Shown piece after piece: positions 30,387-64,000 of a DNA stretch of 64,000 nucleotides. Within the stretch, counting starts at the first letter, position 1, and every line of letters starts with the position of its first letter. This DNA comes from an uncultured Psychroserpens sp. Lineage in GTDB: Bacteria; Bacteroidota; Bacteroidia; Flavobacteriales; Flavobacteriaceae. The DNA is taken from positions 558,001 through 622,000 of the forward strand of contig CANKZZ010000002.1 of NCBI GenBank assembly GCA_947488655.1, read 5' to 3'. The notes under the pieces were generated by a model, which saw only the letters and a program-made list of their open reading frames with translations, was not told the origin of the DNA and made no database searches. The position numbers and the translations under genes are program-made.

Positions 30387-30404
30387 GCGAAAGCCAATGA
30401 AATC

Positions 30405-30436
30405 AACGGATTGTGTTCTCGCAATCCGTTTTTTTA
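30405..30436 (+). terminator. Element-borne tRNA terminator
   Basis: Nine-base stem (30405-30413 with 30422-30430) followed by a run of T, just after attL. It replaces the native terminator, which was displaced to 45289-45321. Confidence 0.75.
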
Positions 30437-30465
30437 TGTCATCATTTTCCTTATTTTTACGTTCA

Positions 30466-30486
30466 GTACACGATAGAGTACACGAT
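30466..30486. repeat. Paired GTACACGAT repeats (left), probable integrase arm sites
   Basis: GTACACGAT at 30466-30474 and 30478-30486, 12-bp period, same orientation. The same pair with the same period occurs at 45171-45191 near the other end. They precede the integrase start codon at 30493. Confidence 0.7.
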
Positions 30487-30492
30487 TACCCG

Positions 30493-38451: not shown

Positions 38452-38458
38452 CCTTTAT

Positions 38459-39220: not shown

Positions 39221-39225
39221 TTCCT

Positions 39226-41748: not shown

Positions 41749-42588
41749 CTATATAAATTCTCCATTGCAAAAATCTATGTTTTGATATAAACAATCATAA
41801 AAAGCTGTTTGCCAAGAGTTTTTGTTTACCACATATCTACTACTATAGCAATCTTTAAGATGTGCTTTTAAATGGTTGCTTCCTGCACTTTCAAATAATA
41901 TCGTTATTTGTTGTTTTATGTTTTCAAATTCTTCAATTGCGTGAATAGAGTACAACTCGTTAAGTAAATAGGAAGCAAAATGATTTCTTAGTCGCTCTCT
42001 TAATAAAGTAGGCCAATCATCAGGAGGCAATACGTAATATTCAAATGTAATTGGATTAAGAGTAATTATTTTAGCTTTTAGCCAATCATAATCTTCAATA
42101 TCATCAAAATATGGATGTAAAGTTTCTTCTTCACTATTTGTTGGAGAGTCAACCAACTTGTCTTTATTACAGTCACTACAGGATGGTACTAAATTATTTG
42201 GTGTTATTGATAGTATTGGATATTTTGATTTAGGTAAATAATGATCTAAAGTTCTAACTTGTTTAACATTACAAAATGGGCATTTTCCATTTGGAGCAGA
42301 GATAAATATTGAGTTGTAATATTTCCTTCCCTTATTATTCTTATTTACCAGTCTATCTGTATAGATTCCTTTTAAAACTGTTGCGTTAATTGTATCACTA
42401 ATATTTACATTTTGGTGTATTTGGTATAATGTATTCGTTAGTTTTTTATTATTAAAGTCTGATTCTGCTGTTGTGAATTGATCTACTGAGTCAATTATTT
42501 CTTGTTTAAGAACTGTATTTTGTAAATTATCAATACAATCAAGAATAACTTCTGATACTAAAAATGATGGTTTTGCTATTTTTTTCAT
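41749..42588 (-). CDS. ptuB: HNH endonuclease (Septu PtuB-like)
   Basis: 279 residues. The HNH motif is plain: Cys103/Cys106 (KCPFC), LDH at 114-116 with His116, NN at 131-132, and Cys137/Cys140 (SCSDCNKDK) holding a structural zinc. Its start overlaps the stop of the upstream ATPase gene by 4 bp (ATGA), so the two proteins are made together. An AAA ATPase followed by an HNH nuclease is the layout of the Septu anti-phage system, in which the nuclease acts under ATPase control. Assignment rests on motifs and order, not on a database match. Confidence 0.82.
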   Translation of the reverse strand: MKKIAKPSFLVSEVILDCIDNLQNTVLKQEIIDSVDQFTTAESDFNNKKLTNTLYQIHQNVNISDTINATVLKGIYTDRLVNKNNKGRKYYNSIFISAPNGKCPFCNVKQVRTLDHYLPKSKYPILSITPNNLVPSCSDCNKDKLVDSPTNSEEETLHPYFDDIEDYDWLKAKIITLNPITFEYYVLPPDDWPTLLRERLRNHFASYLLNELYSIHAIEEFENIKQQITILFESAGSNHLKAHLKDCYSSRYVVNKNSWQTAFYDCLYQNIDFCNGEFI

Positions 42589-44093
42589 TTATTATGCATT
42601 AATGTTCTTAAAATAGCTTTTCCCTCTTGACCAATTTTATTATTTAAAATACCAACAGCCTCTTCAAAATCATTTGAGTTGTTTACTATTTCCTTTAAAA
42701 TATTATGAAAACCAGAATCTGTCACTTCTAAACCAAATATTTCTTGTGTCAGTAGGCCAACATTTTCTCCAAAAGATTCAATTTCTAATCGTTCTGCAAT
42801 CGCATCTGCTCCGTGCCTTCTTAACTTCCATACAGAACTTTTTGGGACTTCTTGTAATACAACAGGTGAATGAGTACCAATTATAGCTACTGCATTTCTT
42901 TGTATAAGTATATCCGATAATGCTCTGATAAATGCAGAAAGTAATGGAGGATGTAAATACCCTTCTGGCTCATCTAAAAGGACAAGACTTCTTTCCTCGA
43001 TAGTCTCAACAATTTGAGTAATAGTTAATAATACTATTTTATGTCCAGAACTTAATTTATTAAAAATTAAAGAAGCTTTTTCGATTAATTGTAAATTGTC
43101 TTCAATTTCTAAAATATGAGATACCTCAGACTCATTAAATACAGGATCTGTTTCAAGGACTTTTACTGCATTTTCCCACCTATTTCTCTTTCCTTGTAAT
43201 TTACATTTTTCAATACTTTTTACAAATTCATTTTTTAGTATTGTTGGGCTTTTTGGTCTATCATTATTCTTTTCAGCTCTTTTTAATCCAATATATGAAT
43301 AATTTAAATGTTTAGTTTTATCTCTTTTTTCAACAATAGGATTTGTTTCATCAAATGCACTAAATGAAACTGAGATAAGATTAGCAAAAGGATTTTTTGA
43401 TTCTTCAAGAGAATTTGTGAAAAAACCATTTTTTCCATTTCTTCGATTTCCACCAAGTAGCGAAGTAATCATACTATTGAAAAGATGAGTTTTACCAACA
43501 CCATTACGTCCTATAATTACATTAATATTTGATGGAGGATTTGATTTAGGAATAACGTTAAAATCCAAAACCATATCGCATACTAAACTTTTAGGATGTT
43601 TAGGTAAATGGAACTTGAAATTGTAAGGTGTTAATTCAGAATTACCAGTAGCCAATCTTCTAAATTGACCTTCTACTGAAGTTGTACTAACATCTCTCAA
43701 TAGAGAAATTTTCGTTACATTTTCTTTTAATGAACGTTTGTAAATATTAGTTTTCAATGCTAAATCGTTCAGTGCATTTAAAACCTCGTCTCTAAAATCT
43801 ACGCTAATTAAACTTAATCTTTCATAATAACTAACATCTTGCCCCAGAGAGAAAAAGGTTTCCTCTAATACTTCAAAAGAATTTGGCAAATTAGGGGTTC
43901 TCATTTGCGAGCCCATATTAAATTTTCCGATTTTTACAGATCCCAAATTATGTCTGAGTCCTTCATTATCATAATAATAAAGTGTATACAAAGTGGAGTA
44001 GGTAAACCAATCATCCCAGTTTGAGTGAAACAGAAAAACAACATTGATTTTTTGTATTTCAGAATTAGTATCGTTGTTGAGATAAAAGTTCAT
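42585..44093 (-). CDS. ptuA: AAA/ABC-type ATPase (Septu PtuA-like)
   Basis: 502 residues. Walker A GRNGVGKT (195-202), a late ABC-like signature LSSGHKIV and Walker B LVLLDEPEGYLHPP are followed by the switch-His region IIGTHSPVVLQEVP, the arrangement of OLD/AAA_15/AAA_21 ATPases. The N-terminal 190 residues hold no known motif. It is first of a two-gene operon with the HNH gene, matching PtuA-PtuB. The 244 bp upstream contains nested inverted repeats GCGTCAA/TTGACGC and TAACG/CGTTA around 44130-44185 that may regulate it. Confidence 0.8.
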   Translation of the reverse strand: MNFYLNNDTNSEIQKINVVFLFHSNWDDWFTYSTLYTLYYYDNEGLRHNLGSVKIGKFNMGSQMRTPNLPNSFEVLEETFFSLGQDVSYYERLSLISVDFRDEVLNALNDLALKTNIYKRSLKENVTKISLLRDVSTTSVEGQFRRLATGNSELTPYNFKFHLPKHPKSLVCDMVLDFNVIPKSNPPSNINVIIGRNGVGKTHLFNSMITSLLGGNRRNGKNGFFTNSLEESKNPFANLISVSFSAFDETNPIVEKRDKTKHLNYSYIGLKRAEKNNDRPKSPTILKNEFVKSIEKCKLQGKRNRWENAVKVLETDPVFNESEVSHILEIEDNLQLIEKASLIFNKLSSGHKIVLLTITQIVETIEERSLVLLDEPEGYLHPPLLSAFIRALSDILIQRNAVAIIGTHSPVVLQEVPKSSVWKLRRHGADAIAERLEIESFGENVGLLTQEIFGLEVTDSGFHNILKEIVNNSNDFEEAVGILNNKIGQEGKAILRTLMHNK

Positions 44094-45372: not shown

Positions 45373-46857
45373 CTATTTTATATTAGCCTTACACCATGCG
45401 TTAAAAGCCTCTTGTAATTCTTTGACTTTTTCAGGGTGCTCAGCAGAAACGTCATAACGCTCTCCTGGATCATTTTCTAAATCAAATAATTTAATAGATA
45501 AATCGTCCCTAATTGGCGCAATGTATTGTGCAGAGGGTTCACTTTTCCAATGGTTTTCTTTTGCATTAGTAATTTTCCATTTTCCCTTACGCGCAGCCCA
45601 AGTTTTTTGCCATTTCCAAACTAATAATCTCTCGTTGTTAGCATCATTAAATAAGTTGATGCCATCTAAATCTTTATCTGTAATAGTTACTCCTCCAGCT
45701 TTTGCAAGCGTTGGTAAAATATCTGTAGCAGACACATACTTAGTTTCTACTTTACCTGCTTCCACTTGTCCTGGCCAACTTACAGCCATTGGTACTCTAA
45801 TACCGCCTTCCCAAAGTGAATATTTTCCTCCTGTTAATGGTGCATTGTTAGAACCTGTTAATGGAGAACCTCCATTATCTGAAATAAAAATAATCAATGT
45901 ATTACTATCTAATTCTTGTTCTTTTAATGCATCAAGTACACGACCAATATTATCGTCAAGGCAATTGAGATTTGCTAAATAATACTTGCGTAAATCGTCT
46001 GTATTTATGGCTCCAACTCTAGAATACTTATCATAATAGGCAGAGTAAGTTCCTGCATCATGTTTGCCATAAGCGACCAGACTGTCTGGTTCGTAATTAG
46101 GAATTTCTTTAACGTTATACTTATCTAAATATTTTTTTGGTACTTCATGTATTAAATGATGAACTGCGCTATAAGACAAGGTTAAAAAGAAAGGTTTGTC
46201 TCTTTTCTGTTTTAGATAAGAAATTGATTCGTCAGTAAAAATATCTGTAAGATATCCATCTTCGTAACTTTTTTCTCCCATATTATGCATTAATGGTCCA
46301 AGTAAAGCACTGGTGCCATAAGGATCTGGAGTGCGGTCTTTAATACTTTGAGAATTCAACCAATAATCATGTGCGTGAGCAGAAAATCCTAAAAACTCAT
46401 CATAACCATGATGTAATGGGTATTCTCTAACATCATTTTTGTGAAAATTTCGACCCAAATCATTTTTACCAATTCTTGCGGTTTGGTAGCCAGCTTCTTT
46501 TAAATATTCTGCTATAGTTTTAACATCATCAGGCAGTCCTGGTCCCCAACTTGCAGGTTTATCCCATCTAAATTGATTTTTTCCAGTGATGATACCTGCT
46601 CGTGACGGACTACAAACTGGAGCAGTCACATAAGCTTGTGTGTACACAGTTCCTGCTTTCCCTAATTTTGTAATATTTGGTGTGGCAATCGATTTATCGT
46701 GATTCTCAAATGGAGAAAAATCATTATAACCTTGATCGTCAACCACTATTAGTAATATATTTGGTTTAACCTGTGTATTTGTTATGTCTTTACGCTCTTC
46801 TTTTGATTTACACGAGAATAAAACCAATAATAAAAGTGATAGTGCAGCCTGTTTCAT
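45373..46857 (-). CDS. Sulfatase (S1 family, formylglycine-dependent) lipoprotein
   Basis: A signal peptide with lipobox LFSC (Cys16) is followed by a full sulfatase fold of 494 residues. Metal-ligand aspartates in VVDDQGYNDF (about 39-48), the active cysteine in CSPSRAG (Cys82; converted to formylglycine, activating residues SPSR) and the downstream ISDNGGSPLTG motif are present. It would cleave sulfate esters from polysaccharides in the periplasm or at the surface. It follows the DeoR-family gene by 25 bp in the same direction, so the two are probably one operon. The specific sulfated substrate is unknown. Confidence 0.92.
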   Translation of the reverse strand: MKQAALSLLLLVLFSCKSKEERKDITNTQVKPNILLIVVDDQGYNDFSPFENHDKSIATPNITKLGKAGTVYTQAYVTAPVCSPSRAGIITGKNQFRWDKPASWGPGLPDDVKTIAEYLKEAGYQTARIGKNDLGRNFHKNDVREYPLHHGYDEFLGFSAHAHDYWLNSQSIKDRTPDPYGTSALLGPLMHNMGEKSYEDGYLTDIFTDESISYLKQKRDKPFFLTLSYSAVHHLIHEVPKKYLDKYNVKEIPNYEPDSLVAYGKHDAGTYSAYYDKYSRVGAINTDDLRKYYLANLNCLDDNIGRVLDALKEQELDSNTLIIFISDNGGSPLTGSNNAPLTGGKYSLWEGGIRVPMAVSWPGQVEAGKVETKYVSATDILPTLAKAGGVTITDKDLDGINLFNDANNERLLVWKWQKTWAARKGKWKITNAKENHWKSEPSAQYIAPIRDDLSIKLFDLENDPGERYDVSAEHPEKVKELQEAFNAWCKANIK

Positions 46858-46882: not shown

Positions 46883-47638
46883 CTATCCTACAATAGTTAC
46901 TTTAATATCTCTTTCTTCAAGTTTTTTTCTAAGAGAGCCAGAGATTCCTTTATCTGTTATAATTTCATGTATATGTGATAAATCACAAATACGTGCAAAG
47001 CTCTTTTTTCCAAACTTTGAAGAATCTGCCAAAATGATAACTTTCTGTGCAGCATTAAGCATTTTTTTATTTAACTCCGCCTCTTCTAAATTGGTAGTAG
47101 ACAAACCGTATTCTAAATCAATACCATCAACTCCTAAAAATAATTTACTGCATGAAACATTTTTTAAAATATACTCGGTATAATTTCCAATAACCGAAGC
47201 CGAGCTGTGACGTATGTAACCACCAAGTTGTAATATCTCAATGTTTTTATCATGTATTAAATTGAGGACTACATGTAAAGATGATGTTATGACTGTTAGT
47301 TTGTTTTTTGGCTTTATAAATTTAGATAATGCTTGCACTGTAGTCCCAGATGCTATTAAAATAGAATCGTTTTCTACAATTTTGGATGCTGCTAATTGTG
47401 CAATTCCATTTTTTTCCTCCACAGAGATTTTCTCTTTGTCAATAACAGTGCGTTCATTTATATAAGGATTCTCTAGAGATGCTCCACCGTGTGTTCTATG
47501 CAATAAGCCTTTTTGTTCTAATAATTTTAAATCTTTTCTAATCGTAACCGCAGATACATTTAAAATTTCACATAACTCAAGTACCTCAAGATGTTTTTCT
47601 TGAGCCAGTCTATTTAATATCTCTTTATGTCTCTTCAT
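46883..47638 (-). CDS. DeoR/GlpR family transcriptional regulator
   Basis: 251 residues: N-terminal DeoR winged HTH (HKEILNRLAQEKHLEVLELCEILNVSAVTIRKDL, residues 3-36) and a C-terminal DeoR sensor domain (GVDGIDLEYGLSTTNLEEAELN; KVIILADSSKFGKKSFA). It is divergent from glpD with 142 bp between, and transcribed with the sulfatase. Repression of the glp operon, with glycerol-3-phosphate as inducer, is the expected role and rests on position. Confidence 0.88.
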   Translation of the reverse strand: MKRHKEILNRLAQEKHLEVLELCEILNVSAVTIRKDLKLLEQKGLLHRTHGGASLENPYINERTVIDKEKISVEEKNGIAQLAASKIVENDSILIASGTTVQALSKFIKPKNKLTVITSSLHVVLNLIHDKNIEILQLGGYIRHSSASVIGNYTEYILKNVSCSKLFLGVDGIDLEYGLSTTNLEEAELNKKMLNAAQKVIILADSSKFGKKSFARICDLSHIHEIITDKGISGSLRKKLEERDIKVTIVG

Positions 47639-47653
47639 GAAAACAAATATAAC

Positions 47654-47735
47654 AAAACGAAATAATATGAAGTTAAAATCTATTAATTTATTTGATATAT
47701 GTATAATTTAAGTTTCGTTTTCTTTCGTTTCGTTA
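47654..47735. promoter_or_regulatory. Operator cluster in the glpD/DeoR intergenic region
   Basis: AAAACGAAAT at 47654-47663 and three tightly packed TTTCGTTT/TTTCGTTA copies at 47713-47735. The second group would cover the -33 region of the glpD promoter, and the first the DeoR promoter on the other side. Repeats like these fit GlpR-type operators (TTCG/CGAA), with binding inferred. Confidence 0.5.
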
Positions 47736-47780: not shown

Positions 47781-49346
47781 GTGTTTAGTAGAGAAACCTT
47801 AATAAATAAGATTAGTACAAACAAAGATTGGGATGTAATCATCATTGGAGGTGGAGCAACAGGTTTAGGAGTTGCTTTAGATTGTACGACCAGAGGTTAT
47901 AAGACATTGCTTTTAGAGCAAGTAGATTTTGCTAAAGGAACATCGAGTAGGAGTACCAAATTAGTACATGGAGGCGTGAGATACTTAGCTCAAGGTAATA
48001 TAGATTTGGTTCGAGAAGCTTTGTATGAAAGAGGTCTAATGCTTAAAAATGCTTCACACCTAGTAAGTAATCAATCATTTATTATCCCTAACTATAAGTG
48101 GTGGGACAATATCTTTTATACCGTTGGATTAAAAGTTTACGATTTTCTATCTGGTAAATTAAGTTTTGGAAAATCGACTAGAATAAAAAAATCTGAAACT
48201 ATTTCAAGATTATCTACACTAGAAACCTCAAATTTAAAAGGAGGTGTCGTGTATCATGATGGGCAATTTGACGATTCTAGATTAGCTATAAATATTGCAC
48301 AAAGTTGTATAGAAAATGGAGCAACAGTTATAAATCATTGTAAGGTTAAAAATTTATTGAAAAATGAAAAAGGAAATGTTGATGGTGTAATTGCAATTGA
48401 TACCGAAACTAATATAGGATATACCTTACACGCCAAAACTGTAATCAATGCAACAGGTGTTTTTACTGATGAAGTGTTAAAAATGGATGATGCCTCTGCA
48501 AAAAATACAATTAGACCAAGTCAAGGTGTTCACTTAGTTTTTGACAAATCGTTTTTACCTGGAAATGATGCTATTATGATTCCTAAAACCAATGATGGTC
48601 GTGTTTTGTTTTTAGTGCCTTGGCATGATAAAGTTGTAGTTGGTACAACAGATACTTTATTAGATAGTCATAGTTTAGAGCCAAAACCATTAGATAAAGA
48701 AGTAGATTTTATTATTGAAACTGCTAATCGTTATCTTAATAAAGACGTTTCAAAAAGTGATGTGTTGAGCATTTTTGCAGGCTTACGTCCTTTAGCAGCT
48801 CCAAAAGACAAATCTGAAAAAACCAAAGAAATCTCAAGAAGCCATAAAATTATCGTATCCGATTCTGAATTGATTACCATCACAGGAGGAAAATGGACCA
48901 CCTATCGCAAAATGGCCCAAGACACTGTAGATAAAATTATCCAGTTACATAAACTGCCAAGCGCCACATGCAAAACGAAGGAGCTATTAATTCATGGCGC
49001 AAATGGCACAGTAGATCGCTCAAATCATTTGTATGTTTATGGAACAGATAAAATCAAAATTGAAAACTTAATTAAAGAACAACCTAATTTGTCTGAGCGC
49101 TTACATGAACGACTTCAATTTACTAAGGCAGAAGTAGTATTTGCTGTAAGACACGAAATGGCAAGAACTATAGAAGACGTGCTTGCAAGACGTGTACGCG
49201 TGCTATTTTTAGATGCTAAAGCTGCCATAGAGATTGCTCCTATTGTTGGAGAGATTATTAGAGGAGAATTAAATCAAACAGATGATTGGCGAGCACAGCA
49301 AATTTCGAAATTTATAGAAATAGCAGACCAATATGTATTAAAATAA
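47781..49346 (+). CDS. glpD: Aerobic glycerol-3-phosphate dehydrogenase GlpD
   Basis: FAD flavoprotein that oxidises glycerol-3-phosphate to dihydroxyacetone phosphate and passes electrons to quinones at the inner membrane. N-terminal VIIIGGGATGLGVALDCTTRGYK binds FAD and the following TSSRSTKLVHGGVRYLAQGN is diagnostic. 521 residues. The start is a GTG at 47781. First gene of the glpD-K-F cluster, 57 bp before glpK. Confidence 0.96.
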   Translation: MFSRETLINKISTNKDWDVIIIGGGATGLGVALDCTTRGYKTLLLEQVDFAKGTSSRSTKLVHGGVRYLAQGNIDLVREALYERGLMLKNASHLVSNQSFIIPNYKWWDNIFYTVGLKVYDFLSGKLSFGKSTRIKKSETISRLSTLETSNLKGGVVYHDGQFDDSRLAINIAQSCIENGATVINHCKVKNLLKNEKGNVDGVIAIDTETNIGYTLHAKTVINATGVFTDEVLKMDDASAKNTIRPSQGVHLVFDKSFLPGNDAIMIPKTNDGRVLFLVPWHDKVVVGTTDTLLDSHSLEPKPLDKEVDFIIETANRYLNKDVSKSDVLSIFAGLRPLAAPKDKSEKTKEISRSHKIIVSDSELITITGGKWTTYRKMAQDTVDKIIQLHKLPSATCKTKELLIHGANGTVDRSNHLYVYGTDKIKIENLIKEQPNLSERLHERLQFTKAEVVFAVRHEMARTIEDVLARRVRVLFLDAKAAIEIAPIVGEIIRGELNQTDDWRAQQISKFIEIADQYVLK

Positions 49347-49361
49347 CTAATGCTACTCTGA

Positions 49362-50906
<1,545 letters not shown>

Positions 50907-50912
50907 AATCAC

Positions 50913-51641
50913 ATGACACCATTTATAGCAGAAATTATCGGAACAGCTATTTTAATTCTATTAGGTGGAGGCGTTGTTGCCAACGTAGTTCTTAACAAAA
51001 CAATAGGTCATAATAGTGGATGGATTGTCATAACAACAGGTTGGGCATTAGCAGTGTATGTGGCTGTTGTAATTGCAGGTCCTCATAGTGGAGCGCACAT
51101 TAATCCAGCAGTAACTGTAGCATTAGCAATTACTGGTAAATTTCCATGGGCAGATGTCCCAATGTATGTTTTAGCTCAAATGTTAGGAGCAATGATAGGC
51201 TCTACAACTGTTTGGCTTACGTATAAAAAACACTTTGATATTACCCAAGATGCAGAGGCAAAAAAAGCAGTGTTTTGTACTGCTCCAGCAATTAGAAATA
51301 CAATATCAAACTTTTTTAGTGAAGCATTAGGGACTTTTGTATTACTATTCACAATATTATATTTTACAGATGCTACCATTAATGATACGCAAACTGTAAT
51401 AGGTTTAGGGTCTTTGGGAGCTTTACCAGTTGCATTTTTAGTTTGGTCTATTGGTTTGTCTTTAGGAGGTACCACAGGTTACGCAATAAATCCTGCCCGA
51501 GATTTAGGTCCAAGAATTATGCACGCCATACTTCCTATAAAAAACAAAGCTAAAAGTGATTGGTCTTACTCATGGATTCCTGTCTTAGGCCCTTTAGTTG
51601 GTGGAAGTTTAGCAGCTTTACTTATGTTAGGATTATCTTAG
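50913..51641 (+). CDS. glpF: Glycerol facilitator GlpF (aquaglyceroporin)
   Basis: Six transmembrane helices plus the two half-helix NPA motifs (HINPAVTVALA and YAINPARDLGPR) of the MIP family; NPARD in the second motif is the glycerol-facilitator signature. 242 residues. Third gene of the glp operon. Uptake of glycerol by this channel feeds GlpK and GlpD. A terminator follows. Confidence 0.96.
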   Translation: MTPFIAEIIGTAILILLGGGVVANVVLNKTIGHNSGWIVITTGWALAVYVAVVIAGPHSGAHINPAVTVALAITGKFPWADVPMYVLAQMLGAMIGSTTVWLTYKKHFDITQDAEAKKAVFCTAPAIRNTISNFFSEALGTFVLLFTILYFTDATINDTQTVIGLGSLGALPVAFLVWSIGLSLGGTTGYAINPARDLGPRIMHAILPIKNKAKSDWSYSWIPVLGPLVGGSLAALLMLGLS

Positions 51642-51734: not shown

Positions 51735-54500
51735 ATGAAAAACTTTTTTACATTTATATGTCTTTGTCTAGTCTTGTCTTTTCAAGCACAAGAGTTACCT
51801 CCTATAGAAAAATATACCGCAATAGATTACGGTGGAGATAACCAAAACTGGATGATTTCTCAAGACAGTAACAATTTTATTTATGTCGCAAATAATAAAG
51901 GTTTATTAGAGTTTAATGGATCGGTTTGGAGTAATTATGAGTCTCCAAATAATTCTGTAATGCGAGCAGTAAATGTAATAGACAATAGAATTTACACAGG
52001 TTGTTATGAAGAGTTTGGGTATTGGGAGAGAGCTAATACAGGTGTGTTGCAATACACATCTTTAATTCCGAAGTTAAAAAACGCTAGTTTAAAAGATGAT
52101 CAAATTTGGAACATTTTATCCTATAACGAATGGGTTTTATTTCAATCTGGTCATGCGCTTTATTTTTATAACAAAACTAACGACACTTTTAAAATTATTT
52201 CTTCGGAAAATATAATCTACAAAGTTTTTTTAGTTGGAGATCACTTGTATTACCACGTGGCAAACGAAGGCTTATACAGGATAGTTAATGCCCAACCAAA
52301 ATTAATTAATAAAGATCCTATTGTTTTAGACGATCGTGTAATTAATATTTTTGAGCATCAAAACAAATTATTAGTACTTACTAGAAATTCTGGCTTTTAT
52401 TTTTTAGAAGATAATTTGCTCAAACAATGGGATATTGAGAGTCTCATTACCTTAAAAGCGTATAGTATTTTTAATAGTATACAGTTAGATGATGGAAGTT
52501 ATATTTTAGGAACAATATCTAACGGTCTATTAAAAATTAATAGTAACGGTGAGATAGAATATGTTATAAATCAAAAAAAAGGATTAGGGAACAATACCAT
52601 CTTAACACTTTTTGAGGATAATGATCATAACGTTTGGGCAGGATTAGACAATGGTATTAATTGTATAAATGTTACATCTCCAATTAGAACATTTATTGAT
52701 TATGAAGGCGATTTGGGTACAGTCTACTGTACCACCATTTTTGATGATAATCTATATGTGGGTACAAATCAAGGTTTGTTTTATAAACCTTTAAATCAAA
52801 AAAATCAAAAATTTAATTTTATTGAAGGTACTGCAGGTCAAGTTTGGAGTCTATTTAATTACAAGAATCAAAATTTAATTTGTGGTCATCATTTAGGCAC
52901 ATTTGTGATAGAAGAAGGCAAAGCAAAACTTGTAAGTTCAATCTTAGGTGCATGGAATTTTAAAACAATACCAAATCATGATAATTTGCTTTTACAGGGA
53001 AATTACAGCGGACTGTATGTTTTAGAACAAGCTAACAATAACTGGAGTTTAAAACATAAAATTGATGGGTTTACAAATTCGGCTCGATTTTTTGAAATAA
53101 ATAATAACAGTGTTTTCGTAAATCATGAATACAAGGGCTTGTATAGTATGCAACTCGATACATCATTAAAAAAAATAGATAACTTAAAACTTCACACAGA
53201 GGTCCCGTCGAGTAATAGTTCTAGCTTAATATCCTATCGTAAAACTATTTTGTATGCCTCACAAGAAGGTGTCTTTAAATATGATATAGAAACCTCTAAT
53301 TTTAAAAAAGACACTTTAATAAGTGATTTATTGATTCCTTCGGAATATACATCAGGTAAAATGGAGGTCGATAACACAGGTAAGTTATGGTTTTTTTCAA
53401 AAAATAATATCAGCTATATCAAAAACGATGATCTTACTAATACACCAGAAATTACTAATATTCCAATTCCATCTCACTTAAGAGGAGGTGTTTTAGGTTT
53501 TGAGAATATAGAGCATATAAACAGAGAGACTTATGTTTTGGGGACTTCAAATGGTTATCTCACTTTAGATGTTTCTAAAGCCGAATCTCAAAAAGAATAT
53601 ACTGTATTTATAAAAGATATTGCTATTAAACATTTAGAAGAAAATGTAGAGCAATTATCGCTCAAAGATAATGGTGTGTTTGACCATAAAAAGGAAATTT
53701 TAACTTTTAGCTACTCGATACCACAATATGATAAATATTTAGATGTCAAATATCAATATCGTTTAGATGGTAGAATGGAAAATTGGAGTGCTTGGTCTAC
53801 CAAAAACTCAATTCAATTTGAGAATTTACCTTTTGGAGATTATATTTTTGAAGTTAGAGGTAAAGTGGGTAATCAATTATCTCAAAATACTAGTAAATAT
53901 AATTTCAAAATTAATAGACCTTGGTACATTTCTAATTTGGCGTTAGTGCTGTATTTATTAATGTTAGTAGGTATTGGTTTCTTTATACATAAAGCGTATA
54001 AATTTTACTATGCACGAATATTGAAGCATGAACAAATCAAAAACGAAAAAACTATTATTCAAATTAAAAATGAAAAATTAAATCAGGATATAGAGAGTAA
54101 AAATCGCGAATTAGCAATTTCTACAATGAGTATTATAAAAAAGAATGAGCTCTTAAGTAAAATAAAAAAAGAGCTAAAGAAAAATAATTCTAAAGAAGTT
54201 GGTGATGCTATAAATCTTATAGATACTAATTTAAACAATAATAAAGATTGGAAATTCTTTAAACAGGCATTTAATAATGCAGATAAGGATTTTTTAGACA
54301 AAATAAAAACAGAGCATCCAGATTTAACACCTAACGATTTAAGATTTTGTGCTTATTTAAGACTCAATTTATCATCAAAAGAAATTGCTCCATTACTTAA
54401 TATTTCAATTAAAAGTGTAGAGACAAAACGATACAGACTTCGAAAACGATTGAAATTAAACCATGATGATAGCTTAGTTAATTATATCTTAAAATTCTAA
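51735..54500 (+). CDS. Membrane-spanning propeller/YYY/HTH transcriptional regulator of the PUL
   Basis: 921 residues: signal peptide, a periplasmic beta-propeller built of Reg_prop-type repeats (NNFIYVANNKGLLEFNG, NHNVWAGLDNGIN), a YYY domain (about 620-715, VKYQYRLDGRMENWSAWST), one transmembrane helix (near 735-755), a cytoplasmic coiled coil and a C-terminal LuxR-like HTH (DLRFCAYLRLNLSSKEIAPLLNISIKSVETKRYRLRKRL). There is no histidine kinase, so it is a direct sensor-to-DNA regulator, expected to bind an oligosaccharide and activate the adjacent susCD genes. Confidence 0.88.
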   Translation: MKNFFTFICLCLVLSFQAQELPPIEKYTAIDYGGDNQNWMISQDSNNFIYVANNKGLLEFNGSVWSNYESPNNSVMRAVNVIDNRIYTGCYEEFGYWERANTGVLQYTSLIPKLKNASLKDDQIWNILSYNEWVLFQSGHALYFYNKTNDTFKIISSENIIYKVFLVGDHLYYHVANEGLYRIVNAQPKLINKDPIVLDDRVINIFEHQNKLLVLTRNSGFYFLEDNLLKQWDIESLITLKAYSIFNSIQLDDGSYILGTISNGLLKINSNGEIEYVINQKKGLGNNTILTLFEDNDHNVWAGLDNGINCINVTSPIRTFIDYEGDLGTVYCTTIFDDNLYVGTNQGLFYKPLNQKNQKFNFIEGTAGQVWSLFNYKNQNLICGHHLGTFVIEEGKAKLVSSILGAWNFKTIPNHDNLLLQGNYSGLYVLEQANNNWSLKHKIDGFTNSARFFEINNNSVFVNHEYKGLYSMQLDTSLKKIDNLKLHTEVPSSNSSSLISYRKTILYASQEGVFKYDIETSNFKKDTLISDLLIPSEYTSGKMEVDNTGKLWFFSKNNISYIKNDDLTNTPEITNIPIPSHLRGGVLGFENIEHINRETYVLGTSNGYLTLDVSKAESQKEYTVFIKDIAIKHLEENVEQLSLKDNGVFDHKKEILTFSYSIPQYDKYLDVKYQYRLDGRMENWSAWSTKNSIQFENLPFGDYIFEVRGKVGNQLSQNTSKYNFKINRPWYISNLALVLYLLMLVGIGFFIHKAYKFYYARILKHEQIKNEKTIIQIKNEKLNQDIESKNRELAISTMSIIKKNELLSKIKKELKKNNSKEVGDAINLIDTNLNNNKDWKFFKQAFNNADKDFLDKIKTEHPDLTPNDLRFCAYLRLNLSSKEIAPLLNISIKSVETKRYRLRKRLKLNHDDSLVNYILKF

Positions 54501-54803: not shown

Positions 54804-57800
54804 ATGAATTTAAAATTACAAAGACCGAGAATTGAAATATTCTTATTCCTTATTTTTCTCTGCAGTTCTTTTTCCGTTTGGGCTCAGACCACTGTAAAAG
54901 GAGCAGTACTTTCTGCAACAGATAACATGCCTTTAATAGGCGCTTCTGTAATAGAAAAAGGAACCGCTAACGGAGCATCAACAGATTTTGATGGAAACTT
55001 CACTTTAACACTCAATAATCCTGGTGCAACACTGGTCGTGTCATACTTGGGTTTTGAAACTAAAGAAGTTATTGCTTCTAATTCACAAATGACGATTTTG
55101 CTTACCGAAGACGCAAGTGCTTTAGATGAGGTGGTTGTAGTAGGTTATGGTACACAAAGAAAAAGCGATTTAGTTAATGCTGTTGCTACAGTTGATTTAG
55201 AAGAAGCTGTATTATCTCCAACATCAGACGTTAATGAAATGCTTAGAGGTAGAATTGCAGGTTTGCAAGTAAATGTTGGAGGAGGAACGCTAAGACCTGG
55301 AGGAACTTCAGATATTATCTTTAGAGGTCAAGGTTCTATAGAAGGTGGTACTAGTGCTATATATGTAGTAGATGGTATTATTAGAGATGGTGGTATTGAA
55401 GACATCGATCAAGACGATATTCAATCTGTAGAATTTTTAAAAGATGCTTCTGCACAAGCTATTTATGGTTCTCGTGGAGCAAATGGTGTCGTTTTAATTA
55501 CGACCAAAAGAGGGAAAAATAAAAAAATGCAAGTGAGTTATCATGGGTATTTAACAACAAAATCAATCGAAAGAAATTTTGATGTATATAGTGGTGCAGA
55601 GTTTGCTCAATTAAAACGAGAAGCTCATAGATCAAATAATGCTAATGATGAGTATTCACTAGATGAAGATATTTTTTCTGAATTAGAATTAGAGTCTATA
55701 GCTAATAATGAGTTTGTAGATTGGGAAGAAGAATTAGTTAGCAATGGTCGCGTAAATAGTCAAGCTATTAGTATTAGTGGTGGTACAGAAAAAACTAAAG
55801 TGTTTGGTAGTATAAATTATTTTGAAGAAGAAGGATTAATACCAACATCAAATTATGTTAGAAAAACTTTTCGTCTAAATGTAGATCAAAAAATAAATGA
55901 TAAATTCTCAGTTAATTTTGATTTAAACTTATTAAACGATGATACAGATAGGGCAGCTAATGTAAACGTAATTACATTTTCACCTTTAGGTAGAGCCTAT
56001 GACGAAGATGGTAACTTAACAAGGTTTCCAAGCGGAGAAGAGTCGTCTCCTGTAAATCCAATTTGGAATTTAAGAGAACAAAATAATGAAGAAAAAGGTA
56101 ATGATTTTGTTATTAATATTACTCCGCAATGGCAAATCACAGATAACTTACTTTATCAATTAAAAACAAACTTTACAAGAAGAACATCAGAGAGAGGACA
56201 ATACCAGTCTACACTTAGTGGTGCAGCAGATGATGTTAATGGAAGAGCAATTATAGATAACAGGTTACAAGAATCTTTTTTAGTAGAGAATATATTAACC
56301 TATAATAAAGAAATAAACGAAAACAATAAGTTTGATATAACATTGGTACAGTCTATTCAAGAAGACGAAAATTCTAGGACTATATCAACAGGAGAAGGAT
56401 TTGTAAATGACGCTCCAGGTTATAATGGTATTGCAGATGCAACAGGAGAAATAACTATCGCTAGGCAAAATGCAACTATTAATCGTGTTGGTTTAATGGC
56501 AAGAGGACGTTATACTTTAATGGATAAGTATTTGATTACAGCAACAGCTAGAAACGATGCAAGTTCAGTTAATGCAGAAGGTAGTAAATGGAGTACAAAT
56601 TTTGGTGGTTCATTTGCATGGAAAATTCATAACGAGAATTTCTTAGCAGATGTAGAATCTATTAGAGAGTTAAAATTTAGAGCAAGTTATGGTTCATTAG
56701 TTAATGATTTAAATAGATCGCTAACAAGTTTTTTTAGAGCAGATGGTCAAAATTATATATTTGACGAACAGTCAGAGTCTGGTTATGTGCCATTAAATGT
56801 TTTGCCAAATCAAAATTTAAAATTTGAAACCGTTACAACATTCAATTTAGGATTAGATTTTGCTTTATTTAATAATATTCTTACTGGTAATGTAAATTAT
56901 TATGACGCAAGAACTACAGATTTATTGTTGAGACGCCAAGTACCTTCAATTACAGGATATGACTTTACATATTTTAATGCTGGAGAATTACAAAATACAG
57001 GTGTAGAAGTTAGCTTAACAGCTAATATTATTAATACAGACGATTTTAAATGGTCGGTTTCTACAAATTGGTCTAATAATGAAAACAAAATTTTAGAACT
57101 ATATAACGATGGCGATGGAAATGCAATTACCGAAGATGATGGTTATGGATATTATGTAGGACAGTCTATTGGTGTAATTAGACAATATCAATTTGATGGT
57201 ATCTGGCAAGAAGGTGACGATTTTGCAAATGCACCTCAGGCCAATCCAGAATCAACAATATCACAAGATAATTTAAGACCTGGAGATATTAGAGTAGCCG
57301 ATGTAAATGGAGATGGTATAATTACTCAAGACGACCGTGTGTTTACAGATCAAAATCCAGATTGGTTTGGCTCATTTTCGACAAACTTGGCTTACAAGGG
57401 ATTTGATTTATTTGTAGATTTCTATGTTGTAGAAGGCGCAACTAAAGTTAATCCATTTCTATCAGACTTTAATAATGGTGGGACATTATCTGGTAAGCTA
57501 AATGGTGTAAAAGTAGATTATTACACACCAGAAAATCCGTCTACAACTTTTCCAAGACCAAATTTTGATTCTACACCTCTTTACTTAAATGCTTTAGCGG
57601 TTAAAGACGCCTCATATGTTAGATTAAGAACAGTTAGTTTAGGTTATTCTCTGTCAAACAATGCTTTAGAGCAAATAGGTTTAGATCAAGTGAGATTGTA
57701 TGTAACAGGAACAAATTTATTTACAAGTACAGATTATATAGGTTACAGCCCAGAAGTAAATATTAGAAGTACTTTCTCTAACGCAGATACTGGTTATCCA

Positions 57801-57842
57801 GATGCTAGAAGTTTCACATTTGGAATACGTTTAAAATTTTAA
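54804..57842 (+). CDS. SusC/RagA TonB-dependent oligosaccharide transporter
   Basis: 1012-residue outer-membrane barrel. After the signal peptide comes a carboxypeptidase-D-like domain (VKGAVLSATDNMPLIGASV ... FDGNFTLTL), the TonB box area ALDEVVVVGYGTQRKSD, the plug (AIYVVDGIIRDG; VEFLKDASAQAIYGSRGANGVVLI) and the barrel ending in FTFGIRLKF. It imports the oligosaccharide captured by the SusD partner next to it. Start ATG follows the leader; the SusD frame begins right after its stop. Confidence 0.96.
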   Translation: MNLKLQRPRIEIFLFLIFLCSSFSVWAQTTVKGAVLSATDNMPLIGASVIEKGTANGASTDFDGNFTLTLNNPGATLVVSYLGFETKEVIASNSQMTILLTEDASALDEVVVVGYGTQRKSDLVNAVATVDLEEAVLSPTSDVNEMLRGRIAGLQVNVGGGTLRPGGTSDIIFRGQGSIEGGTSAIYVVDGIIRDGGIEDIDQDDIQSVEFLKDASAQAIYGSRGANGVVLITTKRGKNKKMQVSYHGYLTTKSIERNFDVYSGAEFAQLKREAHRSNNANDEYSLDEDIFSELELESIANNEFVDWEEELVSNGRVNSQAISISGGTEKTKVFGSINYFEEEGLIPTSNYVRKTFRLNVDQKINDKFSVNFDLNLLNDDTDRAANVNVITFSPLGRAYDEDGNLTRFPSGEESSPVNPIWNLREQNNEEKGNDFVINITPQWQITDNLLYQLKTNFTRRTSERGQYQSTLSGAADDVNGRAIIDNRLQESFLVENILTYNKEINENNKFDITLVQSIQEDENSRTISTGEGFVNDAPGYNGIADATGEITIARQNATINRVGLMARGRYTLMDKYLITATARNDASSVNAEGSKWSTNFGGSFAWKIHNENFLADVESIRELKFRASYGSLVNDLNRSLTSFFRADGQNYIFDEQSESGYVPLNVLPNQNLKFETVTTFNLGLDFALFNNILTGNVNYYDARTTDLLLRRQVPSITGYDFTYFNAGELQNTGVEVSLTANIINTDDFKWSVSTNWSNNENKILELYNDGDGNAITEDDGYGYYVGQSIGVIRQYQFDGIWQEGDDFANAPQANPESTISQDNLRPGDIRVADVNGDGIITQDDRVFTDQNPDWFGSFSTNLAYKGFDLFVDFYVVEGATKVNPFLSDFNNGGTLSGKLNGVKVDYYTPENPSTTFPRPNFDSTPLYLNALAVKDASYVRLRTVSLGYSLSNNALEQIGLDQVRLYVTGTNLFTSTDYIGYSPEVNIRSTFSNADTGYPDARSFTFGIRLKF

Positions 57843-59600: not shown

Positions 59601-61172
59601 ATGCGTTACATATTTTTTGTTTTAGTCTCCATTGTATTAATGTCCTGTGAGCCTTCAAAGGTCGAAAATATTAGTTTTGCAGATAATAAAGTTATAGCTC
59701 ACCGAGGAGCTTGGAAAACCAAAAATTTACCAGAAAATTCTATTGCTTCTTTAAAGCATGCCATAAATTTAAATTGTGCAGGATCTGAGTTTGATGTTCG
59801 CATGACTTTAGATAAAGTGCTTATTGTTACGCACGATGCAGATTATAATGGGTTAAATGTAGAAACTTCTACTTATAAAGAATTATCCAAAAGCAAACTT
59901 TCTAATGGAGAAGTGCTTCCAACTTTAAGAGATTATATAATAGCAGGAATGACCAATAATACCTCAACAGGATTGGTCTGTGAAATAAAGCCATCAAAAA
60001 CACAAGGTCGTAATATAGAAATTACCAATAAAGTTCTAGACCTTGTAAAAGAATTAAAGGCAGAGTCTTATATCTCTTATTATATTAGTTTTAGCTATGA
60101 GATTTTAAAACATATTACAACAATAAATCCAAATGCAAAGACCCTTTATCTCGATGGGTCTAAAGCTCCAAATGTCTTAAAAAATGATAGTATAACTGGT
60201 TTAGATTATTTAATGTTTAAATTAAAGAAAAAGCCACAATGGATTAAGGAGGCTAAAGATTTGGGTTTAATTTTAAATGCATGGACAGCAAATTCTATAG
60301 ACGATATAGATTGGCTCATTGCAAACGATTTTGATTACATAACAACCAATGAACCTGAGTTGGTTTTTGATAGAATTAAATCTAGTCCCACAAAAGAGGA
60401 CTATAAATTGGTTTGGAGCGATGAGTTTAATTACTTCGGAAAACCAGATAGCTCTAAATGGCATCATGAAATTGGATTAATAAGAAATCATGAAAAACAA
60501 TATTATACAGATAGTTTAAAAAACTCCAGAGTTGAAGATGGTTTTCTTATTTTAGAAACTCATAAAGAAAAAATTAAAAATGCTTCATATGAAAATAGCG
60601 ACGTTAAAAATTGGAGAAAAAATCAACCTTTTGCAAATTACACTGCAGCTAGTTTAACCACTCGAGATTTAGCAGAGTGGAAATATGGTCGTATAGATAT
60701 AAGAGCAAAATTGCCAAAAGGTGTTGGCTTATGGCCTGCATTTTGGATGTTAGGTGCTAACTATGGCGAGGTTGGATGGCCAGAGTGTGGTGAGATAGAT
60801 ATTATGGAGCATGTAGGTTTTAGTGCAGATTCTATTTTTGGCACCATTCACACAAAATCATATAATCATATGAGAGGCACTCAAAAAGGAAAAAATATCT
60901 TTGTAGAAAATCCTTATGATACATTTCACACCTATACATTAATCTGGACACCAGATTATATGGATTTTGTTTTAGATGAAAAAGTATATAATCATATAGA
61001 GAACGAGCATAAAACCTCTCATGAGTGGCCTTTTGATCAAAAGTTTCATCTAAAAATTAATGTAGCGGTTGGAGGCATGTTAGGTGGTAGAAAAGGTATT
61101 GATGATGACGCTTTTCCTAACAAAATGATGATAGATTATGTGAGAGTTTATCAAAAAGAAGACAAATTATGA
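59601..61172 (+). CDS. Fusion lipoprotein: glycerophosphodiester phosphodiesterase + GH16 glucanase
   Basis: 523 residues. Lipobox VLMSC (Cys16). The N-terminal domain (about 30-260) is a GDPD: HRG (34-36), EFD (63-65), THD (77-79) and CEIKPSK (127-133), all catalytic positions intact. The C-terminal domain (about 265-520) is glycoside hydrolase family 16, with SDEFNYF, WPAFWMLG and the catalytic pair Glu398/Glu403 in GEIDIME, like endo-beta-1,3-glucanases (laminarinases). Fusion of these two activities is unusual. Fourth gene of the PUL; the next gene overlaps by 4 bp. Confidence 0.92.
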   Translation: MRYIFFVLVSIVLMSCEPSKVENISFADNKVIAHRGAWKTKNLPENSIASLKHAINLNCAGSEFDVRMTLDKVLIVTHDADYNGLNVETSTYKELSKSKLSNGEVLPTLRDYIIAGMTNNTSTGLVCEIKPSKTQGRNIEITNKVLDLVKELKAESYISYYISFSYEILKHITTINPNAKTLYLDGSKAPNVLKNDSITGLDYLMFKLKKKPQWIKEAKDLGLILNAWTANSIDDIDWLIANDFDYITTNEPELVFDRIKSSPTKEDYKLVWSDEFNYFGKPDSSKWHHEIGLIRNHEKQYYTDSLKNSRVEDGFLILETHKEKIKNASYENSDVKNWRKNQPFANYTAASLTTRDLAEWKYGRIDIRAKLPKGVGLWPAFWMLGANYGEVGWPECGEIDIMEHVGFSADSIFGTIHTKSYNHMRGTQKGKNIFVENPYDTFHTYTLIWTPDYMDFVLDEKVYNHIENEHKTSHEWPFDQKFHLKINVAVGGMLGGRKGIDDDAFPNKMMIDYVRVYQKEDKL

Positions 61173-62053
61173 GATGGAGCACATTATTAATAGGGTTTCT
61201 TTTAATTAGCGCATTTAGTTGTGATAAAAAAGTAAATTCACATTTAAAAACTAACGAGGATAGCATGCAAAGTAAAACTTCACAATTAAAAGTAATGACC
61301 TATAATATGCGTTTAGATATCGCGTCAGATGGTGATAACGCATGGCCGAATAGAAAGGAGTTTTTTAGTTCTCAATTATTGTTTTTAGAGCCAGATATTT
61401 TTGGTGTTCAAGAGGCAAGGCCAAATCAAATAGAAGATTTAAAGTCAACCTTTGTAAATTATAAATACATTGGCACAGGACGAGATGGTAATAATTCTGG
61501 AGAATATTCTGCTATTTACTATAACTCAAATAAAATTAAAGTAGAACAAGAACATACATTTTGGTTATCTCAAACTCCTAACGAAATTTCTAAAGGCTGG
61601 GATGCAGCATACCCTAGAATATGCACTTATGGTTTATTTACCCATTTAGCATATAATAGTAAAATTTGGGTATTTAATACACATTTAGACCATGTGGGAG
61701 TAGAAGCACAAAAAGAAGGTATTAAGCTCATAATTAAAAAAATAAAGGCTATTAATACACAAAATTTACCAGTTATACTTATGGGAGATTTTAATGTAGA
61801 ACCTAACAGCGAGGTAATAGCTTCAGCCAGACTAGAGCTAAATGATTCAAAAGATTTAGCAAAGGTTAAATTTGGTCCAAACGGTACATTTAATGGTTTT
61901 AAATATGATGAACCTGCAACGAGACGTATAGATTATATCTTAGTTTCAAAATCATCAAATGTTGAGGTAAATAAATATGCTGTTTTTTCTAGTGCTATCA
62001 ATTTTAAATACCCTTCAGATCATTTTCCTGTTTATGTAGAATTAGAATTTTAA
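61169..62053 (+). CDS. Endonuclease/exonuclease/phosphatase (EEP) family lipoprotein
   Basis: 294 residues with lipobox AFSC (Cys18). The EEP-fold catalytic set is complete: TYNMR (Asn), VQEA (Glu), NTHLDH (His/Asp), MGDFNVEP (Asp/Asn) and PSDHFPV (SDH). The fold cleaves phosphodiesters or phosphomonoesters and includes sphingomyelinases and inositol phosphatases as well as nucleases. The start overlaps the fusion gene by ATGA and the GH3 gene starts 9 bp later, so it belongs to the PUL operon. A DNA substrate is unlikely in this setting; the true substrate is unknown. Confidence 0.85.
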   Translation: MRWSTLLIGFLLISAFSCDKKVNSHLKTNEDSMQSKTSQLKVMTYNMRLDIASDGDNAWPNRKEFFSSQLLFLEPDIFGVQEARPNQIEDLKSTFVNYKYIGTGRDGNNSGEYSAIYYNSNKIKVEQEHTFWLSQTPNEISKGWDAAYPRICTYGLFTHLAYNSKIWVFNTHLDHVGVEAQKEGIKLIIKKIKAINTQNLPVILMGDFNVEPNSEVIASARLELNDSKDLAKVKFGPNGTFNGFKYDEPATRRIDYILVSKSSNVEVNKYAVFSSAINFKYPSDHFPVYVELEF

Positions 62054-62062
62054 TACGTTTTT

Positions 62063-64000
62063 ATGAGATTATCACCATTATTTTTTTACAAGTTTGTTAT
62101 TGGTTTTATTGTAGTTATTATTGTGTTTACAAGCTATACTAAACTTACTGCACAAGATAAATCTGGGCCTTCTCAAATTGTTTTAGATGCAAACAGGTCT
62201 TCTAGTAATCACAAAAATAGCAGTATAGAGAATAAAGTAGATTCAGTATTATCACTAATGAAAATCAACGAAAAAGTTGGTCAACTCGTGCAGTATAGTG
62301 GTAAATGGAATATGACAGGACCATCATCATCAAAAGGAGATCAGTATAAATTAGATAAACTTAAAAAAGGAGAAGTTGGGTCTATGCTCAACATAACATC
62401 CGTAGCGTCAATTAGAGAAACACAACGTATTGTTATGGAAAATTCTAGGCTAAAAATACCTTTAATTTTTGCCTATGATGTTATTCATGGTTATAAAACC
62501 ATATTTCCAATCCCATTAGGAGAAAGTGCAAGTTGGGATTTAGATATTATACAACAATCTGCAGCTGTGGCTGCCAAAGAATCTGCAGCGTCTGGACTAA
62601 ACTGGACTTTTGCGCCAATGATAGACGTCTCAAGAGATGCACGTTGGGGACGTTCTATGGAAGGAGCAGGAGAAGATCCATATTTAACTACGGAAATTGG
62701 AGTTGCAAGAATAAATGGCTTTCAAGGTAAAGATTTGGCAAACAAATATACTATTGCAGCTTGTGCTAAGCATTTTGCTGGCTATGGTTTTGGAGAGGCA
62801 GGACGTGATTATAATACAGTAAATATTGGTGAGTTCGAATTGCATAATACAATTTTACCTCCATTTAAAGCTGCAGCAAAAGCTAATGTAGCCACCTTTA
62901 TGAATGCTTTTAATGAAATTGATGGGATTCCTGCTACAGGTCACAGTGTATTACAAAGAGACTTATTAAAAGGAGAATGGAATTGGAATGGTTTCATGGT
63001 GTCAGATTGGGGAAGTATTGGAGAAATGGTTGCTCATGGTTATGCCAAAGATAAAAACCATGCAGCACAAATAGCATTAAATGCAGGTAGTGATATGGAT
63101 ATGGAGTCTTATGCTTATGAGGCAGCCTTAGAGACATTGCTGGAAGAAAATAAAATAAGCATAACGCATATAGACGACGCAGTTAGACGTGTATTACGAA
63201 TAAAATTTGAATTAGGATTATTTGATGACCCTTACAAATATTGTAATGAAGAGCGAGAGCAAACTCAAGTTTATTCTGAAGAAAATATAGCTATTGCTCG
63301 TGATGTAGCTAAAAAATCAATTGTACTTCTAAAAAATGAAAATAATATTCTTCCGCTATCAAAAAACATTGGTAGTATAGCAGTAATTGGTCCGTTGGCA
63401 GATGATAAAGATTCGCCTTTAGGTAATTGGAGAGCTAAGGCAGAGTATAATTCTGCTATTTCATTATTAGAAGGCGTAAAAGCTTCCGTAGAAAAAAACA
63501 CAACTGTTTATTTTGAAAAAGGAATTGATTTAACAATTCCTAATATAAAACCAGGAGATAACCAGTTTTTACATCCTTTAAATTTTAATACTACCAATCG
63601 GTCGGGCATTGAGAAAGCAGTGCAGATTGCAAAAAAAGCAGATGTAGTATTATTGGCAATTGGCGAAGATGCTTACCAAACTGGAGAGGGAAGAAGTCAA
63701 GCAGATATTGGCTTTAAAGGGTTGCAGTTAGAGTTGTTAGATGCTGTAAGAGCTGTAAATTCTAATATTGTGGTGGTTTTAATGAATGGTAGGCCAATGG
63801 ATTTAAGTTATCCAGCTAAAACAGTACCTTCTATTTTAGAATGTTGGCATTTAGGTTCTCAATCTGGTCATGCTATTGCAGATGTACTTTTTGGAGATTA
63901 TAATCCGTCAGGTAAATTACCTGTTTCATTTCCGCACAATGTTGGTCAAGAGCCTTTATATTATAATCAAAAAAATACAGGAAGACCGTATAATAATAAG
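62063..64000 (+). CDS. bglX: GH3 beta-glucosidase, 5' part (cut by window end)
   Basis: Starts at ATG 62063 and stays open to the last codon of the window (646 residues seen, about 750 expected). A hydrophobic N-terminal segment (about 8-25) ends before TAQDK, acting as signal peptide. The (alpha/beta)8 domain has CAKHFAGYG, and the nucleophile Asp315 lies in MVSDWG. The second domain begins with KKSIVLLKNENNILPLS. Resembles periplasmic BglX-type beta-glucosidases, which would finish the oligosaccharides released by the GH16 domain. Confidence 0.95.
   Translation, partial: MRLSPLFFYKFVIGFIVVIIVFTSYTKLTAQDKSGPSQIVLDANRSSSNHKNSSIENKVDSVLSLMKINEKVGQLVQYSGKWNMTGPSSSKGDQYKLDKLKKGEVGSMLNITSVASIRETQRIVMENSRLKIPLIFAYDVIHGYKTIFPIPLGESASWDLDIIQQSAAVAAKESAASGLNWTFAPMIDVSRDARWGRSMEGAGEDPYLTTEIGVARINGFQGKDLANKYTIAACAKHFAGYGFGEAGRDYNTVNIGEFELHNTILPPFKAAAKANVATFMNAFNEIDGIPATGHSVLQRDLLKGEWNWNGFMVSDWGSIGEMVAHGYAKDKNHAAQIALNAGSDMDMESYAYEAALETLLEENKISITHIDDAVRRVLRIKFELGLFDDPYKYCNEEREQTQVYSEENIAIARDVAKKSIVLLKNENNILPLSKNIGSIAVIGPLADDKDSPLGNWRAKAEYNSAISLLEGVKASVEKNTTVYFEKGIDLTIPNIKPGDNQFLHPLNFNTTNRSGIEKAVQIAKKADVVLLAIGEDAYQTGEGRSQADIGFKGLQLELLDAVRAVNSNIVVVLMNGRPMDLSYPAKTVPSILECWHLGSQSGHAIADVLFGDYNPSGKLPVSFPHNVGQEPLYYNQKNTGRPYNNK

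Follow-up and report, generated by a model that had tools for sequence, protein, structure and literature searches.

A GDPD-GH16 fusion linked to glycerol genes and a sulfatase in Flavobacteriaceae: a possible cassette for glycerophosphorylated beta-1,3-glucan

Introduction

The question raised by the locus described here is which glycan would call for a lipoprotein that joins a GDPD domain to a laminarinase-type GH16 domain in the vicinity of genes for glycerol use. The locus was found in a 64,000-nucleotide stretch of the genome (G000) of an uncultured Psychroserpens sp. of the Flavobacteriaceae (contig C2, 558001-622000; hereafter the window, on whose numbering all coordinates are based), where it extends from 45373 to beyond 64000. 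An adjoining susC-susD pair, glycan-active enzymes and a regulator place it among the polysaccharide utilisation loci (PULs). The whole region may be one cassette for glycan use, with a substrate that would be a beta-1,3-glucan or glucan oligosaccharide carrying phosphodiester-bound glycerol and, very probably, ester-bound sulfate, and this joint reading is judged to have about an even chance of being correct. It draws on gene content, active-site conservation, linkage conservation and operator-like sites, all of which were observed.

Organisation of the locus

The features of the locus are as follows.

59601..61172, + strand: GDPD-GH16 fusion lipoprotein, 523 aa, a single uninterrupted open reading frame (ORF), domains from Pfam
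61169..62053, + strand: EEP-family lipoprotein (Pfam PF03372), probable sugar- or glycerol-phosphate phosphatase
62063..64000, + strand: BglX-like GH3 beta-glucosidase, truncated at the window end, full gene 788 aa
57843..59450, + strand: SusD-like lipoprotein (Pfam PF07980/PF14322)
54804..57842, + strand: SusC/RagA TonB-dependent transporter (TIGR04056, 765 bits)
51735..54500, + strand: Reg_prop/Y_Y_Y/LuxR-HTH one-component regulator (REG), kept across the locus family
50913..51641, + strand: glpF, glycerol facilitator (PF00230), linkage conserved
49404..50906, + strand: glpK, glycerol kinase
47781..49346, + strand: glpD, glycerol-3-phosphate dehydrogenase
47712..47730, + strand: candidate tandem operator GTTTCGTTTTCTTTCGTTT of the DeoR/GlpR-like repressor, directly 5' of the TATATTTG -7 element in the glpD promoter
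46883..47638, - strand: DeoR/GlpR-like repressor (PF00455/PF08220), divergent from glpD
45373..46857, - strand: sulfatase lipoprotein with a CSPSR formylglycine motif, behind the DeoR gene, apparently part of the system

The fusion and EEP ORFs overlap by 4 bp and the GH3 ORF starts 10 bp after the latter (62063), while susC and susD lie directly 5' of the fusion with the regulator (51735-54500) ahead of both. A first-pass annotation of this DNA had described a GDPD fused to a laminarinase-type GH16 and followed by an EEP protein behind susCD, an arrangement borne out by the single ORF and its Pfam domains. It had also put the glycerol genes about 8 kb upstream on the same strand, and the distance from the end of glpF to the fusion is indeed 7.96 kb; the order that it gave, glpF-glpK-glpD, has to be reversed, as glpD-glpK-glpF occupies 47781-51641. 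Nor does the GH3 gene close the set as was supposed, since it runs beyond the window and is followed after 44 bp, outside the window, by an MFS sugar-porter gene.

The fusion protein and its phosphatase neighbour

Pfam assigns residues 34-253 of the fusion to GDPD (E 1e-18) and residues 345-514 to GH16 (E 8e-23). The lipobox cysteine C16 is invariant in 19/19 fused homologues, as are the GDPD catalytic residues H34, R35, E63, D65, H78, E128 and K130 and the GH16 residues E398, D400 and E403. With stand-alone GDPDs included the GDPD catalytic residues are kept in 34/35 domains, the exception (L051) being a slice cut short. The HRG/ExD/H/ExK catalytic and metal-binding residues agree with membership of PF03009, the GDPD family, and the EIDIMEHVG catalytic motif together with the fold of solved laminarinases suggests a GH16_3-like laminarinase; 3iln, 6xqf and 4dfs are among the structures nearest to this domain. 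The window genome has two more GDPD genes (C2:198699-199352 and C6:94397-95161), which lack a GH16 domain and lie outside any PUL.

A phmmer search matched the fusion over its whole length to the structures 7ww4 and 7wwc (478 bits), with which an AlphaFold2 model (pLDDT 89.9) aligns over 500 columns at TM 0.88/0.96 and 46% identity. The entries are titled as a multidomain beta-1,3(4)-glucanase and 7WWC contains laminaritriose, that is, the GH16 of a homologue has been crystallised with a beta-1,3-gluco-oligosaccharide. The source organism is Pedobacter terrae, no publication accompanying 7WWC was available, and one sentence in the paper that reports this ties the code to another enzyme (PMC12448869). 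The likeness to the fusion covers the GDPD-then-GH16 order end to end and identical GDPD catalytic residues, but the protein was deposited solely as a glucanase. No report of phosphodiesterase activity or genomic context was found in the literature on 7WW4/7WWC. The fusion architecture is thus already known, from an unpublished crystal structure.

A survey of 299 Flavobacteriaceae genomes found the full fusion in 11, the others being 63-67% identical to that of the window apart from two at 51%; G225, in which the domains are two ORFs, was not counted as a full fusion. The search for the fusion elsewhere, which had been proposed as a check on the first-pass annotation, also yielded a Saccharicrinis metagenome-assembled genome and Fulvivirga outside the family sample, in addition to 7WW4/7WWC, whereas plasmid records gave GH16-only matches and no full fusion. 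As it recurs in 11/299 genomes and in a solved structure, the fusion is no assembly artefact. GDPD and GH16 occur either fused or as neighbours at the same site (L050, L054, L055, L077, L081), and the tree requires at least four switches between the fused and separate states. One genome (G181) has the fusion and EEP gene inside a GH16-GH30-GH30-GH3 locus, a beta-1,3/1,6-glucan PUL. The Fulvivirga fusion (L076:9869-12327) has a divergent GDPD, with THG and NSG in place of the THD and NAW found elsewhere, and is directly followed by a second gene for an ordinary stand-alone GDPD.

The closest solved relatives of the EEP protein are the Bacteroides EEP phosphatases 3mpr and 4c1r (mannosyl-6-phosphatase; E ~1e-47), and its active-site residues N46, E82, H172, D207, N209, D255 and H285 are invariant in 22 homologues, which together suggest a phosphatase. 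It differs from the Bacteroides proteins in its beta-glucan and glycerol context.

Linkage with glycerol genes

Glycerol kinase of the window type (E <= 1e-240) is encoded in 40/299 genomes and in 8/11 of those with the fusion. The gene lies ~6-11 kb from the fusion in seven of these eight; in the eighth (G047) there is a contig break, with the fusion on a contig of 8 kb and glpDKF on another, where a GH3 gene begins 5 bp after it (L159). The window arrangement, glpDKF ahead of REG-susCD, is the commonest, and several others were observed. In Flaviramulus (L041/L153) glpDKF stands behind the GH3 gene of the PUL in the same orientation, in Polaribacter porphyrae (L151) the order is sulfatase-glpKF-REG, with the glp genes before REG and no glpD, in G133 (L055 and L149) glpDKF is downstream of the locus, and in G225 (L148) glpKF is immediately ahead of the split GDPD-GH16. 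The last genome also has a sulfatase of another subfamily (L148:14437-15888; 148 bits to that of the window) 61 bp before glpK-glpF-GDPD-GH16, as if it had replaced the usual one. In two genus-mates of the window organism (G045, G267) the full fusion, sulfatase, DeoR gene, glpD and glpK (the last as judged by the strict threshold) are jointly absent.

Chance was rejected as an explanation for the linkage: of 20 control genomes with a close glpK and no fusion (L160-L179), none has such a PUL beside glp. A special lineage of linked glpK was likewise rejected, because linked and unlinked copies interleave in the tree (where G225, although linked, was labelled unlinked). A caveat to be applied to all such tests is kinship among the genomes, which makes them dependent samples and their p-values too optimistic; more weight is due to the rearranged orders and to the controls. 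The link between glp and the PUL holds from genus to genus and survives changes of gene order, which makes glycerol a very likely product of this PUL.

A route through a glycerol-3-phosphate permease was rejected, as no GlpT above the family cut-off was found in 23 genomes, a search that did not extend to other importers such as Ugp-type ABC systems. Glycerol-3-phosphate from the GDPD would therefore need dephosphorylation before entry, which would give the EEP protein a natural place ahead of GlpF-GlpK-GlpD, and release of glycerol probably precedes import. The glp regulon of E. coli comprises GlpR, GlpD, GlpFK and the periplasmic GlpQ, an exported GDPD that supplies glycerol or glycerol-3-phosphate. 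The DeoR-family repressor, GlpF, GlpK, GlpD and exported GDPD of the window resemble that system, from which the locus differs in that no GlpT was found, the GDPD is fused to a glucanase in a SusCD locus and, in relatives, the sulfatase shares the candidate operator.

The sulfatase and a shared candidate operator

The first-pass annotation made no claim of linkage to the sulfatase operon, but the distribution of the sulfatase supports one. Only genomes that carry this locus, 8/299, have an orthologue (70-82% identity): seven fusion genomes and G157, which has a GH16-less locus. This corresponds to 7/11 fusion genomes against 1/288 others (Fisher 7e-11, kinship ignored). A wider set of genomes gives 12 orthologues, of which 11 lie at the locus. 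The gene stands between those for EEP and GH3 in Flaviramulus and Formosa algae. It also co-varies with glpK, occurring in 12/21 glpK-bearing and 0/9 glpK-less locus genomes (Fisher 0.003, uncorrected for kinship). The CSPSR motif is kept in all orthologues examined. The nearest PDB entries are carrageenan sulfatases, which at ~200 bits are too distant for a substrate to be named. Judged by these patterns the sulfatase appears to belong to the system, with a link as close as that of glp.

The intergenic region between the DeoR gene and glpD has a conserved tandem TTTCGTTTnnTTTCGTTT directly 5' of a TAnnTTTG promoter element. A matrix trained solely on sites from these intergenic regions gave 26 matches of at least 20 bits in 5.66 Mb on both strands, the DeoR/glpD regions among them. 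In four of the five genomes where the sulfatase has its own promoter an operator-like site lies 41-140 bp 5' of the gene.

L142:9111, L143:12033, L145:11845 and L150:10094: candidate operators before the sulfatase, with the promoter layout of glpD

In exact genome-wide searches the 18-bp operator core had a single match in the window genome, at glpD, while G125 and G300 had matches only at glpD and the sulfatase. A further site (L053:9501-9519, in G269) precedes a solitary GDPD gene by 28 bp; this GDPD has 64% identity to the window domain, and a close glpK, glpD or DeoR was not found in the genome. No operator was present upstream of the unlinked sulfatase of G119 or the sulfatase of G244. 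The predicted glp regulon would thus take in glpD, the DeoR gene and the sulfatase of relatives, in which the DeoR/GlpR-like repressor seems also to control the sulfatase.

Proposed pathway and alternatives

We infer the substrate and each catalytic step as follows. The lipid-anchored GH16 would cut the glucan backbone while the attached GDPD cleaves the glycerophosphodiester, and SusCD would import the resulting pieces. The EEP phosphatase would strip leftover phosphate from sugar-phosphate or glycerol-3-phosphate, the sulfatase would take off sulfate, and GH3 would liberate glucose for the MFS porter. Glycerol would enter via GlpF and be burned by GlpK and GlpD under the DeoR/GlpR-like repressor. 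Because GH16 and GH3 join the GDPD/EEP/glp route, the simplest substrate would be a glycerophosphoryl beta-1,3-glucan, probably sulfated.

The laminarin PULs of North Sea Flavobacteriia (variants A-D, PMC6298971) share SusCD, GH16 and GH3, the beta-1,3-glucan backbone enzymes, with the window locus, which in addition includes genes for GDPD, EEP, a sulfatase and glycerol use (glp); the main text of that study by Kappelmann et al. does not contain the words phosphodiesterase, phosphatase or glycerol (PMC6298971). Literature searches for GDPD with GH16, laminarin, SusD or PUL found nothing on this locus, and no description was found of a cassette that combines glp genes, a sulfatase and a candidate operator common to both, the fusion alone being already known.

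Several observations weigh against a glycerophosphoryl glucan as substrate. We know of no beta-1,3-glucan that bears glycerophosphate, and a literature search for phosphoglycerol laminarin found none, the sole near find being an old report on Phytophthora phosphoglucans in the form of a citation in another paper. The GDPD could act on small glycerophosphodiesters. In nine locus-bearing genomes, among them those of Algibacter, Tamlana and Cellulophaga, even a looser search (E<=1e-100) found no glpK, and glycerol use is therefore optional; the three genera named include genomes with the fusion itself. The phosphoglycerol-glucan idea of the first-pass annotation is accordingly retained in part, with glycerol very likely a product in view of the GDPD residues, EEP relatives and glp linkage, and glp not an obligatory partner. 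A search for the operator at the REG, susC and fusion promoters gave no site. GH3 is missing from the locus of G125, and both GH3 and GH16 from that of G157 (sulfatase, DeoR, glpDKF, REG, susCD, GDPD and EEP), so that the glucan part is dispensable there.

The G157 locus would suit a core devoted to scavenging glycerophosphodiesters, such as deacylated phospholipid head groups and similar small anionic glycerol compounds, via SusCD, GDPD, EEP and glp, with GH16 and GH3 as accessories for laminarin from the same dying algal cells. The glp-type operator at the solitary GDPD of G269 fits as well. This is nevertheless rather unlikely, as a beta-glucanase or sulfatase would hardly be needed for small diesters, EEP adjoins GH16 even where GDPD is absent (L049, L086), and GH16 is covalently joined to GDPD in most genomes, a coupling gained or lost on several occasions that would be odd for unrelated substrates. 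Retention of GDPD in G157 without GH16 tells in turn against an ordinary laminarin PUL in which GDPD is a minor fusion partner and glp is nearby by inherited synteny. The laminarinase-like GH16, GH3, susCD and REG are typical of such PULs, and the interleaved tree makes the linked glpK an ordinary flavobacterial one, but a glp link that survives rearranged orders and is shown by 0/20 controls, together with invariant GDPD catalytic residues, renders this explanation improbable.

It has also to be considered whether the sulfatase, and not the GDPD, frees the glycerol-bearing group, a sulfated glycerol unit, with GDPD and EEP removing an unrelated phosphate decoration. The glp-type candidate operator at the sulfatase of relatives is consistent with this, as is the presence of glpK in 12/12 sulfatase-bearing genomes and of the sulfatase in none of the nine glpK-less ones, where GDPD by contrast persists. 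The chemistry is speculative, however, the solved sulfatases closest to this one have carrageenan galactose sulfate as their substrate and the GDPD itself once carries the candidate operator (L053), and such a role is quite doubtful. Least probable by far is a substrate from other bacteria, either osmoregulated periplasmic glucans (OPGs) with phosphoglycerol, the example offered by the first-pass annotation, or cyclic beta-1,3/1,6-glucans with other phosphodiester groups. OPGs are documented glucans that bear phosphoglycerol or similar groups; we know of none that carries sulfate, and a beta-1,2-glucanase was not seen in the locus, where GH16 and GH3 are the only glycosidases. The backbones of groups 1-3 (E. 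coli type) are beta-1,2 and outside GH16 laminarinase specificity, which makes the example as given a poor fit, and the beta-1,3/1,6 backbone of group 4 alone could be cut by GH16 (PMC10514313).

Flanking genes

An alginate-lyase-like ORF cluster starts ~0.5 kb beyond the MFS porter gene (G000:C2 ~624400-634000; L005:9376-18999), with alginate-lyase-type, gluconokinase, 6-phosphogluconate dehydrogenase, transporter and SDR ORFs, named by eye from their translations. On the other side an HNH-type protein and AAA ATPase pair (41749-44093, - strand) matches PADLOC PDC-M01B and PDC-M01A/PtuA (Septu-like defence), beside restriction-modification genes of type III (35851-41142) and an ORF that resembles an integrase (30397-31785); together they form a probable defence island.

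Implications

Laminarin-like glucans carry a large share of the carbon flow in the sea, where phosphorus is scarce. It is tentatively suggested that a marine beta-1,3-glucan so far undescribed, a polysaccharide or storage oligosaccharide with glycerol phosphate and sulfate, is widely available to alga-associated Flavobacteriia and that a dedicated cassette channels its sugar, glycerol and phosphate together. If a glycerophosphoryl beta-1,3-glucan is indeed the substrate, some beta-glucans would be anionic and glycerol-bearing and would be overlooked by standard glycan analysis, the glp regulon would become connected with PUL biology, and a two-domain enzyme whose structure is solved but unpublished would gain a function.

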